Shown: piece by piece, positions 17,874 through 61,875 of the stretch | Numbering within the stretch: position 1 is the stretch's first letter | How the letters are laid out: each line of letters begins with the position of its first letter | NCBI GenBank assembly: GCA_002400495.2 | Contig: NVQL02000016.1 | Span: 1-64,000 of the forward strand | Source of the DNA: Alphaproteobacteria bacterium | GTDB lineage: Bacteria; Pseudomonadota; Alphaproteobacteria; Rhizobiales; OSC116 | Direction: 5' to 3' | DNA: 64,000 bases | The notes under the pieces: model-generated | The model's input: the letters and a program-made list of their open reading frames with translations, nothing else | Database searches by the model: none | What the model was told of the DNA's origin: nothing | Made by a program: the position numbers and the translations under genes

Positions 17874-18250
17874 CAGCCGGACTGGAGGCCGCCACTTATG
17901 TGGCGCACCCGCGTAGGCCTGAGCAAAGCGAAGAATAGCCGCGAGCGAAATAAATGCAGCACCCGAGCATAGGCAGGACTGCTAACTTTCTTATGTCTTT
18001 GCAGTGGGAAATGCAGGTTCACCCGATGCGACTCCTGCACAAACCATCAACGCCACAACTTTTCAGCTATCACTGGGCAGCGTCCTGCCTAAGCTCTGGA
18101 AGTTTGCATTTTTACGTTCGCTGCGCTCACTAGTAGGCCCCTGCGGGCGCTTGCCTCCGCAAGCTTGCAACGCGCTAACCGCGCGACGGCCAGTCGGCCT
18201 TGCCTCAGCCTGTCGGCTTCGGACTCTTTTACCATGATAGGCAGCGCTCA
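17874..18250. repeat. Dispersed modular repeat, locus 1
   Basis: GC-rich non-coding stretch between 6S RNA and zapA. The shared module CTCTGGAAGTTTGCATTTTT begins at 18094, followed by palindromic cassettes (CCCCTGCGGGCGCTTGCC, CGACGGCCAGTCGG) and GGCTTCGGACTCTTTT. A second module, reading CCCGAGCATAGGCAGGA on plus, is an inverted match to the one near 38018. Related sequence occurs at the other three loci. ORFs called here are repeat artefacts. Confidence 0.85.
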
Positions 18251-37588: not shown

Positions 37589-37590
37589 GC

Positions 37591-37790
37591 ACCAAAACTC
37601 GGAGCTTCGCCAAACTCTAGCCCACTAAGCTTAATGAGCTAACGTTGGGTGGTGAACAAGCGTCCCATCAGCGGCTGAGTGGCTTAGCTAGAGAGCGGAG
37701 CGAACGCACGCAGTGCCAAACATAATGCAAGCTTCCAGAGCATCAAAAACCAGCCAACTGTCTTTATACAGCATATTCCGACGAACAGCA
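37591..37790. repeat. Dispersed modular repeat, locus 2, first tandem copy
   Basis: Begins ACCAAAACTCGGAGCTTCGC, contains the shared CAGCGGCTGAGTGGCTTAGC at about 37674, then the cassette GAGAGCGGAGCGAACGCACG and a tail CTTCCAGAGCATCAAAAACC. The next copy starts 204 bases later with the same opening sequence. Confidence 0.88.
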
Positions 37791-37794
37791 TGCC

Positions 37795-38000
37795 ACCAAA
37801 ACTCGGAGCTTCGCCAAACTCTAGCTCACTAAACATAATGTAGTTAGGTTGGGTGGTGAACCAGCACCCGACCAGCGGCTGAGTGGCTTAGCAAGCACGC
37901 GGAGGCGTGCGCCCGCAGGGGCCACTAGCCCGCCGAAAGGTGGGCGTAAAAATGCAAACTTCCAGAGCCTCAAAAACCAGCTAACTTTCTTTCAACAGCC
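37795..38000. repeat. Dispersed modular repeat, locus 2, second tandem copy
   Basis: Same opening and CAGCGGCTGAGTGGCTTAGC as the first copy, but the cassette is replaced by CACGCGGAGGCGTGCGCCCG plus a second palindrome (CCCGCCGAAAGGTGGGC). The tail CTTCCAGAGCCTCAAAAACC is the reverse complement of the module that opens loci 1 and 4. Confidence 0.88.
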
Positions 38001-38165
38001 TATACTGGGCAGCACTCCTGCCTATACTCGGGTACTTCATTTATACGTTCGCTTAAGCTCACTGTTGACACTTGCGTGCGTTCGCTGCGCTCCCTTGCCT
38101 ACCTCGCGTCCTACGGCAGCGGCTTCGAACGGCCGCTGTCGCGCTCACTGGATAGCACGTTGAAT
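38001..38165. repeat. Dispersed modular repeat, locus 2, right arm
   Basis: TCCTGCCTATACTCGGGTAC is an inverted match to locus 1 (near 17960), followed by GTGCGTTCGCTGCGCTCCC and palindromic stretches such as CGGCTTCGAACGGCCG. This part diverges most from loci 3 and 4. It runs up to the 3' end of the propionyl-CoA synthetase gene, whose last codons match repeat sequence from locus 3. Confidence 0.75.
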
Positions 38166-38188
38166 GGATGCGAGGGGCAGACGGATAT

Positions 38189-40102
38189 TCAGAGTTTATT
38201 GGACGCAATCAATCCCGCCTCACCAAACCGCGCCGTCAGTTCAACCAATATCTCAGGGTCATCAATCGTCGCAGGCACTTTATATTCTTCACCATCAATA
38301 ATTTTACGCATTGTAGCACGTAATATCTTACCACTGCGGGTTTTGGGCAAACGCTCCACCACAATTGATGTGCGATAAGCCGCCACGGGGCCGATCACCT
38401 CGCGCACCATTTGCCGACATTCCGCCTCTATTTCTTCATCTGGCCGATTGACCCCATCGTTTAAAATCAGCAAACCAATCGGCATTTGACCTTTTAATTT
38501 ATCAGCAATGCCAATCACCGCACATTCGGCAACATCTTTATGGCCCGCGATAATCTCTTCCATCGCACCTGTTGACAAGCGATGCCCTGCCACATTAATA
38601 ATATCATCAGTCCGCGCCATGATGAACAAATAACCATCTTCATCTAAATATCCCGCATCCGACGTTTCATAATAACCTTCAAAATTGCTATAATATTTTT
38701 CGTTCAGCACATCATCAGCTTGCCATAAGGTGGGCAAACAACCTGGCGGCATGGGGCGTTTAATGAGAATATTACCTGTTGCATTTGCAGCAACTGGAAC
38801 ACCTTCATCATCAACCACCACAATTTCATAACCTGGCATCGGCTTAGCTGAAGAGCCGTATTTTACAGGCAATCGCTCAATGCCCATCGGGTTGGCCGCA
38901 ATTGGCCAGCCTGTTTCTGTTTGCCACCAATGGTCAATCACTGGCACCTTCAAATGTTGCTCTGCCCATTTTATAGTATCAGGGTCAGCCCGCTCACCCG
39001 CCAAATATAGCACTTCAAACGCTGACAAGTCATAATCAGCCATCAATTTACCTTCGGGATCTTGCTTTTTTATCGCCCGCAAAGCCGTTGGCGCGGTAAA
39101 TAAGCTTTTGACTTTATATTCTTCAATCACCCGCCAAAACGCCCCAGCATCTGGTGTGCCGATCGGCTTGCCTTCATACATAAGCGCAGTTGCGCCTTGC
39201 AGCAATGGCCCGTAGACAATATAGCTATGGCCAACCACCCAACCGACATCCGAGGCCGCCCAGAACACATCACCAGCATCAATGTCATATATCGCCTTCA
39301 TTGACCAATTCAGCGCCACCATATAGCCGCCATTGTCACGCACCACACCTTTTGGCGTGCCAGTCGTGCCCGATGTATAAAGCACATAAAGCGGATCAGT
39401 TGCCAACACAGCCACGCGCGCACATTGCTGATCTGCGGCCTTAACCGCATCAACCAATTCCTGCCAATCAGCATCAACGCCTTCATTCATATTGGCTATA
39501 TGTTGTTGGCGCTGTAAAATAATCGTTTGCGCCACCTTATGCGCCGCAATGTCAATCGCTTCATCCAATAAAGGTTTATATTCAACAATGCGGTTGGGTT
39601 CTATGCCGCAAGATGCGGCAACAATTAATTTGGGTGTACAATCATCAATGCGCACCGCCAATTCGGGTGCGGCAAACCCGCCAAACACCACGCTATGTAT
39701 CGCCCCAATGCGCGCACATGCCAACATGGCAATCGCCGCCTCAGGCACCATCGGCATATATATAATCACCCGATCGCCTTTGGCAATTTGCGCATTTTGT
39801 AACACACAGGCAAAAGCATTAACTTCAACCAATAATTCTGCGTATGTATATTGTTGTTTTTTACCCGTAACAGGGCTGTCATAAATCAGCGCCACTTGGT
39901 CGGCAAGCCCAGCATTTACATGTCGGTCAAGACAATTATGCGCCATATTGCATTGCCCACCAATATACCAGCGCTCTAACCCGTTTAACTCGCCTTGTAT
40001 TTTATCAAAAGGTTTAACCCACTCAATCAATTTCGCAGCGTCTACCCAAAACGCCTCTGGTCGTTGCTGCCATGATTGATATATTTCGCTATAATTGCCC
40101 AT
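38189..40102 (-). CDS. prpE: Propionyl-CoA synthetase (AMP-forming)
   Basis: Acyl-adenylate enzyme activating propionate, closely related to acetyl-CoA synthetase. The nucleotide loop YTSGTTGTPKGVVRDNGGY (about 247-265) has the RDNGG extension typical of PrpE. Further blocks are WWQTETGWPIAANPMG, YETSDAGYLDEDGYLFIMARTDDIINVAGHRLS and the catalytic Lys in TRSGKILRATMRK. Length 637 residues. It is alone on its strand between repeat locus 2 and the DUF465 genes. Its final residues (ASNKL) and stop are encoded in sequence resembling repeat locus 3. Confidence 0.93.
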   Translation of the reverse strand: MGNYSEIYQSWQQRPEAFWVDAAKLIEWVKPFDKIQGELNGLERWYIGGQCNMAHNCLDRHVNAGLADQVALIYDSPVTGKKQQYTYAELLVEVNAFACVLQNAQIAKGDRVIIYMPMVPEAAIAMLACARIGAIHSVVFGGFAAPELAVRIDDCTPKLIVAASCGIEPNRIVEYKPLLDEAIDIAAHKVAQTIILQRQQHIANMNEGVDADWQELVDAVKAADQQCARVAVLATDPLYVLYTSGTTGTPKGVVRDNGGYMVALNWSMKAIYDIDAGDVFWAASDVGWVVGHSYIVYGPLLQGATALMYEGKPIGTPDAGAFWRVIEEYKVKSLFTAPTALRAIKKQDPEGKLMADYDLSAFEVLYLAGERADPDTIKWAEQHLKVPVIDHWWQTETGWPIAANPMGIERLPVKYGSSAKPMPGYEIVVVDDEGVPVAANATGNILIKRPMPPGCLPTLWQADDVLNEKYYSNFEGYYETSDAGYLDEDGYLFIMARTDDIINVAGHRLSTGAMEEIIAGHKDVAECAVIGIADKLKGQMPIGLLILNDGVNRPDEEIEAECRQMVREVIGPVAAYRTSIVVERLPKTRSGKILRATMRKIIDGEEYKVPATIDDPEILVELTARFGEAGLIASNKL

Positions 40103-54683: not shown

Positions 54684-54900
54684 CGTTCGGCGCGGCCTCT
54701 CTTTTATCGTTCGCTTTGCTCTCTATAAGCACTAGCACCCCAAGGGCACTTTGTCGCTTCGCTCGGGCGCGCTCGTTCGCTCCGCTCTCTTGCCACGCCT
54801 AACGGCGACGCGCAGTCGCGCTTGCCTCAGCCAAAGGCTTCGGACCCTTTTCCCACGATATGCAGTATAATACCAGGCAGCAAATTCAGAATTTGTTGGG
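54675..54900. repeat. Dispersed modular repeat, locus 3, left module
   Basis: Begins at TTTTTTCGTTCGGCG and runs through CTCTCTTTTATCGTTCGC, CGCTCCGCTCTCTTGCCACG, CGGCGACGCGCAGTCGCGC and GGCTTCGGACCCTTTTCCCA. It is close to locus 4 (61540-61680) over the same span, with an extra GC-rich cassette around 54750. Confidence 0.88.
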
Positions 54901-54904
54901 ACGC

Positions 54905-55040
54905 ACCAAAATGCGGAGTGTCACCAGCCTCTAGCTCACTAAGCGTAATGTAGTTGATTGGGGTGCCGAATTCACATCCGACCAGCGGCTGAGTGGCTTA
55001 GCTAGAGAGCGGAGCGAACGCACGCAGTGCCAAACATAAA
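54905..55040. repeat. Dispersed modular repeat, locus 3, right module
   Basis: ACCAAAATGCGGAGTG, CTCTAGCTCACTAAGCGTAA and CAGCGGCTGAGTGGCTTAGC, then the cassette GAGAGCGGAGCGAACGCACG as in locus 2 copy 1. It ends within 2 bases of the bolA stop codon. Confidence 0.88.
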
Positions 55041-55063
55041 ATCAATTCACTACGTGAATTGAT
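55041..55063 (-). terminator. Stop-codon-spanning hairpin at the 3' end of bolA
   Basis: Perfect 10-bp stem ATCAATTCAC/GTGAATTGAT with a 3-base loop covering the last codons and stop of bolA; the minus strand continues TTTATGTTTGG. A moderately strong terminator candidate. Confidence 0.55.
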
Positions 55064-55293
55064 AACGCATGCAGCGTTCCCGCAAATTCATCCTTCAACT
55101 CCGACATAATCATCTTATGCTGCATCACGCGGCTTTTGCCATCTAGGGCTGCGGCTTTGATTTTTACGTTGAAATGCGTATTGCCGCCTTCGCGCCAACC
55201 ACCATGCCCTGCATGTTGGTCAGATTCGTCAATAACTTCCAAAATCTCGGGTGAAAGTGCTAATTTTAGCTTCTGTTCAATAATATTTTTCAT
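55042..55293 (-). CDS. BolA-family protein
   Basis: 83 residues with the BolA fold: KLKLALSPEILEVIDESDQHAGHGG near the start, then THFNVKIKAAALDGKSRVMQHKMIM and LHALSIHV. The His in ESDQHAGH and the C-terminal His are the usual iron-sulfur ligands shared with a monothiol glutaredoxin. Divergent from a J-domain gene, as in other Rhizobiales. It could serve iron-sulfur trafficking or transcriptional control; sequence cannot distinguish. Confidence 0.9.
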   Translation of the reverse strand: MKNIIEQKLKLALSPEILEVIDESDQHAGHGGWREGGNTHFNVKIKAAALDGKSRVMQHKMIMSELKDEFAGTLHALSIHVVN

Positions 55294-61516: not shown

Positions 61517-61690
61517 AATGCTCTGGAAGTTTGCTTTTTTTCGTTCGGCTTCGCCTCTCTTTTATCGTTCGCGTTGCTCTCTATTAGCACTAGCGTGCGT
61601 TCGCTCCGCTCTCTTGCCACGCCTAACGGCGACGCGCAGTCGCGCTTGCCTCAGCCAAAGGCTTCGGACTCTTTTCCCAAGCAAGGCACA
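61517..61690. repeat. Dispersed modular repeat, locus 4, left module
   Basis: Opens with CTCTGGAAGTTTGC as in locus 1, then TTTTTTCGTTCGGCTTCGCC, CTCTCTTTTATCGTTCGC, GTGCGTTCGCTCCGCTCTC, CGGCGACGCGCAGTCGCGC and GGCTTCGGACTCTTTTCCCA. It is nearly identical to locus 3 over the last 70 bases. Confidence 0.9.
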
Positions 61691-61709
61691 ATGAGTAAAT
61701 AATTTGGCA

Positions 61710-61875
61710 CCTATATGCAGAGCTTCACCAAACTCTAGCTCACTAAGCGTAATGTAGTTGATTGGAGTGGTGAATTTGCCTCCGACCAGCGGCTGAGTGG
61801 CTTAGCTAGCTTGCGGAGGCAAGCGCCCGCAGGGGCTAAACATAAAGCAAGCACCCCTGTATTGGCAGGAGTGTT
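61710..61875. repeat. Dispersed modular repeat, locus 4, right module
   Basis: CTCTAGCTCACTAAGCGTAA and CAGCGGCTGAGTGGCTTAGC as in loci 2 and 3, then the cassette CTTGCGGAGGCAAGCGCCCG, which is the reverse complement of a cassette in locus 1. It ends CACCCCTGTATTGGCAGGAG, overlapping the stop of the next ORF. Confidence 0.88.

Follow-up and report, generated by a model that had tools for sequence, protein, structure and literature searches.

Does a palindromic repeat diversify by stepwise compensatory mutation of its hairpins, or are whole hairpins exchanged inside a frame that stays the same? The window analysed here, a stretch of 64,000 nt at the start of contig NVQL02000016.1 from a bacterium of the Alphaproteobacteria (Rhizobiales, OSC116), raises this question, as a first-pass annotation described inverted-repeat cassettes that are swapped at a fixed position between conserved flanks. 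Mosaic palindromic repeats are common, and their diversification has mostly been inferred from consensus sequences. Since sister species can be compared at the same site, where the frame is unchanged but the hairpin is not, exchange can here be tested directly against stepwise compensatory mutation.

Structure and distribution of the repeat

The invariant frame CAGCGGCTGAGTGGCTTAGC is present in four exact copies in the window (37669-37688, 37873-37892, 54983-55002 and 61787-61806), where dinucleotide-preserving shuffles give an expectation of 0. The genome to which the window belongs (G000, 3.96 Mb in 122 contigs) contains about 85 matches with up to three mismatches, and the frame read backwards gave 0 matches in this whole genome. 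Among the sister genomes, G001 has 83 matches, G003 has 41 and G002 has 3, the latter being genuine but diverged copies, and the single match in G004 lies in unrelated sequence without the flanking core. All these data are fragments of draft genomes, with a completeness of 92% for G000, 94% for G001 and 71% for G003. The frame pattern was absent outside the genus from the 292 sampled genomes of the order (298 genomes searched overall). The element is an intergenic repeat family of about 100 copies, specific to this genus.

Alignment of 73 copies defined a right module composed of an 80-nt core starting at GCACC, the 20-nt frame, a hairpin slot hp1 (loop GGA), a second slot hp2 (loop GCA) and the tail AATGCAAACTTCCAGAGCAT. 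Upstream of many copies there is a left module, in which inverted hp2 and hp1 are followed by three further hairpin slots, hpA (loop TAAC), hpB (loop AGTC) and hpC; its pattern matches 65 times in G000, 78 in G001, 23 in G003 and once in G002. Left modules are also found alone, as occurs at locus 1 of the window (18137-18218, plus strand), where five consecutive hairpins without a right module read GCCCCTGCGGGC, GCTTGC-CTCC-GCAAGC, CGCGC-TAACC-GCGCG, GGCC-AGTC-GGCC and AGCC-TGTC-GGCT. A 6S RNA (RF00013, 17581-17735) adjoins the ZapA gene, and this lone left module lies in the gap between them. Also, a serC leader (RF00517) is located on the minus strand at 24-76.

Locus 2 carries two right modules, both on the plus strand. 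The first comprises the core (GCACC...TAATG...CCCAT, 37589-37668, delimited by the 73-copy alignment and its column entropies), the frame (37669-37688, located by frame search in window and genome), an hp1 of the GAGAG type (AGAGAGCGGAGCGAACG, 37690-37706, assigned by sequence and slot typing), the hp2 GCAC-GCA-GTGC (37706-37716) and a tail, AATGCAAGCTTCCAGAGCAT (37724-37743, repeat D2), that is common to both modules. In the second, the core (37793-37872, repeat D1 and alignment) and the frame (37873-37892, frame search) precede the perfect hp1 hairpin GCACGC-GGAG-GCGTGC (37895-37910), the hp2 GCCC-GCA-GGGGC (37911-37922) and an optional extra hairpin, GCCCGCC-GAAA-GGTGGGC (37928-37945), also seen in other copies. 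Beyond this second module, another repeat module (CACTTGCGTGCG...GGCAGCGGCTTCGAACGGCCGCTGTCGCGCTCACTG) lies at 38060-38190 and recurs near L043, L044, L045 and L053.

Loci 3 and 4 are composite, again on the plus strand. The left module of locus 3 (54774-54839) consists of a reversed GAGAG-type hp1, hpA CGCC-TAAC-GGCG, hpB GCGC-AGTC-GCGC and hpC AGCC-AAA-GGCT, and its right module (54903-55030) of core (54903-54982), frame (54983-55002), a GAGAG-type hp1 (55004-55020) and hp2 (55020-55030). The left hp2 slot holds a nested insert of about 40 nt on the minus strand (54735-54773; reverse complement GAGCGCGCCCGAGCGAAGCGACAAAGTGCCC...GGGGTGC) that is missing from the G001 ortholog. Some copies (54735-54773 of the window, L198, L204, L031 and L037) have a nested unit, GAGCGCGCCCGAGCGAAGCGACAAAGTGCCCTTGGGGTGC, inserted in hp2, and its presence varies between orthologous sites. 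At locus 4, a left module with reversed GAGAG-type hp1, hpA, hpB and hpC (61598-61663) accompanies a right module (61707-61836) with core (61707-61786), frame (61787-61806), hp1 GCTTGC-GGAG-GCAAGC (61809-61824) and hp2 GCCC-GCA-GGGGC (61825-61836).

The first-pass annotation had placed the cassettes directly after the frame; its three strings are correct, but a spacer of 2-3 nt (TA, AAG or TAG) intervenes. Its statement that their reverse complements appear in left modules holds at locus 1 (18149-18164, CTTGC type), locus 3 (54774-54790, GAGAG) and locus 4 (61598-61614, GAGAG). As locus 4 has the GAGAG type on the left and GCTTGC on the right, its two ends differ in type; more generally, an element may carry unlike types on the left and on the right. 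When the types do agree, the right hp1-hp2 reappears on the left as its reverse complement, hp2-hp1, so that terminal inverted repeats are present.

A small pool of hairpins fills the slots

We found that hairpins are indeed swapped in a conserved frame, as had been claimed from the four window copies: across the genome the types are discrete, with few point variants and chimeras, and the count of cassettes per slot over the copies of three species gave a small discrete set and no gradient. The type GAGAGC-GGA-GCGAACG fills 111 of the 161 right-hand hp1 slots in the three species and pairs over 2 bp only. The remaining right-hand types are mostly perfect hairpins of 6-7 bp, plus a few hybrids, with stems such as GCACGC/GCGTGC, GCTTGC/GCAAGC, GCGAAC/GTTCGC, CGATGC/GCATCG, CGATAC/GTATCG and CAACAC/GTGTTG. 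In this sense, the earlier description of the cassettes as palindromic is right for CACGCGGAGGCGTG and CTTGCGGAGGCAAG, which are perfect hairpins, but not for the commonest one, GAGAGCGGAGCGAACG, with its 2-bp stem. The GAGAG type itself belongs to a broader unit, CGTTCG-(micro-hairpin)-CTCTCT, counted 216 times in G000, 182 in G001 and once in the control. An example of these units lies at 61542-61582 of the window, and their inner parts include CTCCG, CGTTG, CTACG, GCTTCGC and GCTTAAGC.

The two arms of hp1 covary, the mean stem being 3.15 bp vs 1.62 ± 0.17 bp for reshuffled arms (33 distinct arm pairs, p 0.0005), and arm covariation was also detected in hpA, hpB and the left hp1. One explanation may be that the hairpins are selected as RNA, either as 3' structures or as small RNAs, and that their stems drift by independent compensatory mutation under pairing constraint. 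Covarying arms and conserved loops agree with it, as do the location of copies after genes and in the gaps of convergent pairs and some point-variant stems, which are few (GCGATAC/GTATCAC, and GTGATACAGAGTATCGC at L033/L214). We nevertheless regard it as unlikely, considering that the stem of the most frequent hp1 type is just 2 bp long, that no Rfam family matches and that the core of the right module lacks long-range pairing covariation. Moreover, identical stems occur at unrelated loci in three species together with chimeric unpaired arms, which fits exchange better.

The same stems recur from locus to locus, on the left as well as on the right of the element, and in all three genomes G000, G001 and G003. 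The GCTTGC stem was found 11 times on the left and 6 on the right (in these three genomes), GCGATAC 7 and 3 times and GCACGC 4 and 7 times, respectively. One-arm chimeras, whose two arms come from different types, also exist, such as GCACGC-GGA-GGCAAGC and, in a left module, GCACGC-CTCC-GCTCTC at L014. Such chimeras would be natural substrates for local self-templated repair, in which, through template switching, one arm of an imperfect hairpin serves as the template for the other and new perfect stems arise without a donor, and the nearly always perfect minority stems are consistent with it. Yet what is observed is a small recurrent pool of stems across loci and species with no cloud of novel stems, and as the main explanation we find it highly improbable; it could be an addition to exchange between copies, not a replacement for it.

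Hairpins differ at the same site in sister species

Orthologous copies were paired by unique flanks of a few hundred bases, which gave 22 pairs between G000 and G001. In at least 4 of these 22 sites (L028/L224, L021/L206, L053/L201 and L018/L204) the hairpins differ inside the retained frame and flanks, so the cassette switching between related genomes that the first-pass annotation had proposed to look for does occur, although the number of swaps is small. The clearest description comes from L028/L224, where hp1 is GCGATAC-GGA-GTATCGC vs GCAACAC-GGA-TGTGTTG and hp2 is GCAC-GCA-GTGGC vs GCCC-GCA-GGGGC; both species keep the loops, the invariant frame but for one change, and over 60 nt of downstream sequence, and 7 of the 80 core positions are different. 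In L021/L206 hp1 alone differs. In L053/L201 and L018/L204 the difference in type is accompanied by differences in the core or in one of the two flanks, and a larger event is possible for both.

No switching was found at locus 2, for which the swap had been described: both copies (37669 and 37873) keep their hairpin types between G000 and G001 while their cores differ at 22/80 and 18/80 positions. Thus, an exact frame is joined to a core that can vary, and hairpins switch in a minority of cases. At locus 3 (54983-55100 of the window vs L183 and L188) G000 and G001 are homologous only as far as the hairpins, and the downstream neighbour is another one, common to G001 and G003, which suggests that the element has also acted as a rearrangement breakpoint.

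The first-pass annotation left the choice between recombination among copies and cassette insertion. The former is favoured, and insertion was seen once only: the one true insertion is at L047/L198, where hp2 contains a nested 34-nt unit in one species but not in the other. This unit would suit an enzyme that inserts and removes cassettes, be it a Y1 transposase of the REP-associated type or some other single-strand recombinase that acts on hairpins in folded form, and the conserved-loop hairpins at the two ends do resemble substrates of single-strand transposases. However, Y1_Tnp (PF01797) gave no match in the G000, G001 and G003 drafts, when the same search was positive in 5 of 14 control genomes. 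In addition, the sequences read have no GTAG/CGTC tag beside hp1 or hp2, and the swapped cassettes substitute for sequence and do not add to it. Altogether, we hold such an enzyme to be very unlikely. A Y1_Tnp match does occur in G005, where the repeat is absent.

Probable exchange between dispersed copies

In the core of the right module, linkage falls from r2 0.070 at 1-5 nt to 0.011 at 50-99 nt (p 0.0005), a decay over about 30 nt, and four gametes were found in 1126 of 1176 site pairs. Recurrent mutation could account for part of the four-gamete signal, but not for its decay with distance. The hp1 type is linked to the adjacent hp2 and weakly to the core. The one-arm chimeras, the linkage decay and the single pool at both ends favour recombination between copies over active cassette insertion.

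The overall explanation that we consider probable is a non-coding repeat, mosaic in the manner of REP, BIME and RIME, whose stems are exchanged between dispersed copies. The repeat consists of a right module, with core, invariant frame and the slots hp1 and hp2, to which a left module may be added, each slot having a fixed loop and flanks and one of a few alternative stems. Stems may be swapped by homologous recombination or short-tract gene conversion among dispersed copies, with the fixed frame and loops offering the homology, and perfect stems may be maintained by selection or by palindrome-correcting repair. Copies would otherwise be passive beyond gene ends, and at times breakpoints for larger rearrangement. 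We infer from sequence patterns the step to homologous recombination or gene conversion, and likewise any function that goes beyond the mosaic-repeat likeness. A stronger version, in which the frame is a dedicated exchange platform and its loops and flanks are recombination joints that continually reassort a genome-wide stem pool over about 100 intergenic sites, seems to us quite unlikely.

Genomic setting and rejected identities

By a simple longest-ORF rule, which is heuristic, the genes on either side are convergent for 60 of 116 copies, co-directional for 53 and divergent for 3. On a circular chromosome, convergent and divergent gene pairs are equal in number; therefore, 60 vs 3 constitutes a strong bias, and the repeat is nearly absent from promoter-promoter gaps. 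A terminator-like hairpin was found within 120 nt upstream of 5 of 81 right-only copies vs 0.5 in shuffles.

Several other identities were rejected. A RAYT-driven REP was discarded because the carrier drafts gave no Y1 transposase; integron attC arrays, because copies are scattered over dozens of contigs without paired attC core motifs; a structured RNA of Rfam, because no score exceeded the gathering cut-off of any family; and a phage or plasmid origin, because viral contigs, plasmids and phages gave no match. Long-range pairing in the core of the right module is unsupported by mutual information. The frame GGEFASDQRLSGLA made a coding core suggestive, yet it is statistically weak (best 8-codon windows p ~0.02-0.06, uncorrected) and stops appear farther upstream, upstream frames being interrupted in 27-28 of 120 copies. 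The open frame GGEQASHQRLSGLARERSERTQC (37644-37717) spans core, frame and cassette, with third-position-like variation and a weak coding test. No target-site duplication was identified at the copies, and the search for an empty site at the trcR locus of G002, G004 and G005 did not find the anchor or recover a clean empty site.

Relation to known repeats and significance

An identical element was not found in the literature, only related classes. REP elements are described mainly between convergent and unidirectional genes, and REP/BIME are short hairpin units with alternative complementary stems in opposite orientation, with hundreds per genome (PMC3733652). Our repeat shares these traits, and both they and our repeat are intergenic, prefer convergent or co-directional over divergent gaps and are biased to the 3' ends of genes. 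In contrast, our units sit within a fixed frame of 100-250 nt whose two ends use one stem pool. We do not file the repeat as REP because no RAYT-type Y1 transposase was found in the carriers and the evidence on the GTAG/CGTC tag is mixed: none was seen beside hp1/hp2 in the sequences read, and CGT(C) stands before hpA when this is read in reverse, perhaps by chance. The RIME, Sm-repeat and A/B/C palindromes of Rhizobiales are described as intergenic mosaic palindromic repeats with dozens of copies and no known function (PMC2573895). The likeness, by description only, is that of alphaproteobacterial repeats sharing sequence and secondary structure, whereas that description does not include discrete stem exchange at orthologous sites (PMC2573895). 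Mitochondrial double-hairpin and hairpin repeats are, in their account, similarly mobile-looking, intergenic and discussed as recombination sites, but in sponges stems are conserved and loops vary, and here loops are conserved and stems vary (PMC2800124). Composite copies with inverted end repeats and no internal gene also recall MITEs; however, the ends often differ in hairpin, modules occur singly, and neither target duplication nor matching transposase was identified, Y1 transposases being those searched.

The repeat works in the manner of the mosaic palindromic repeats of the BIME or RIME type. The mechanism itself is not new; what is added is that stem exchange was caught at orthologous sites of sister species. 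These sites form a natural series of matched intergenic positions that differ in one hairpin, useful for studying the effects of hairpins on expression at gene ends. Furthermore, if the frame were an exchange platform, sister species would come to differ in the local structure of DNA or RNA at the ends of genes.
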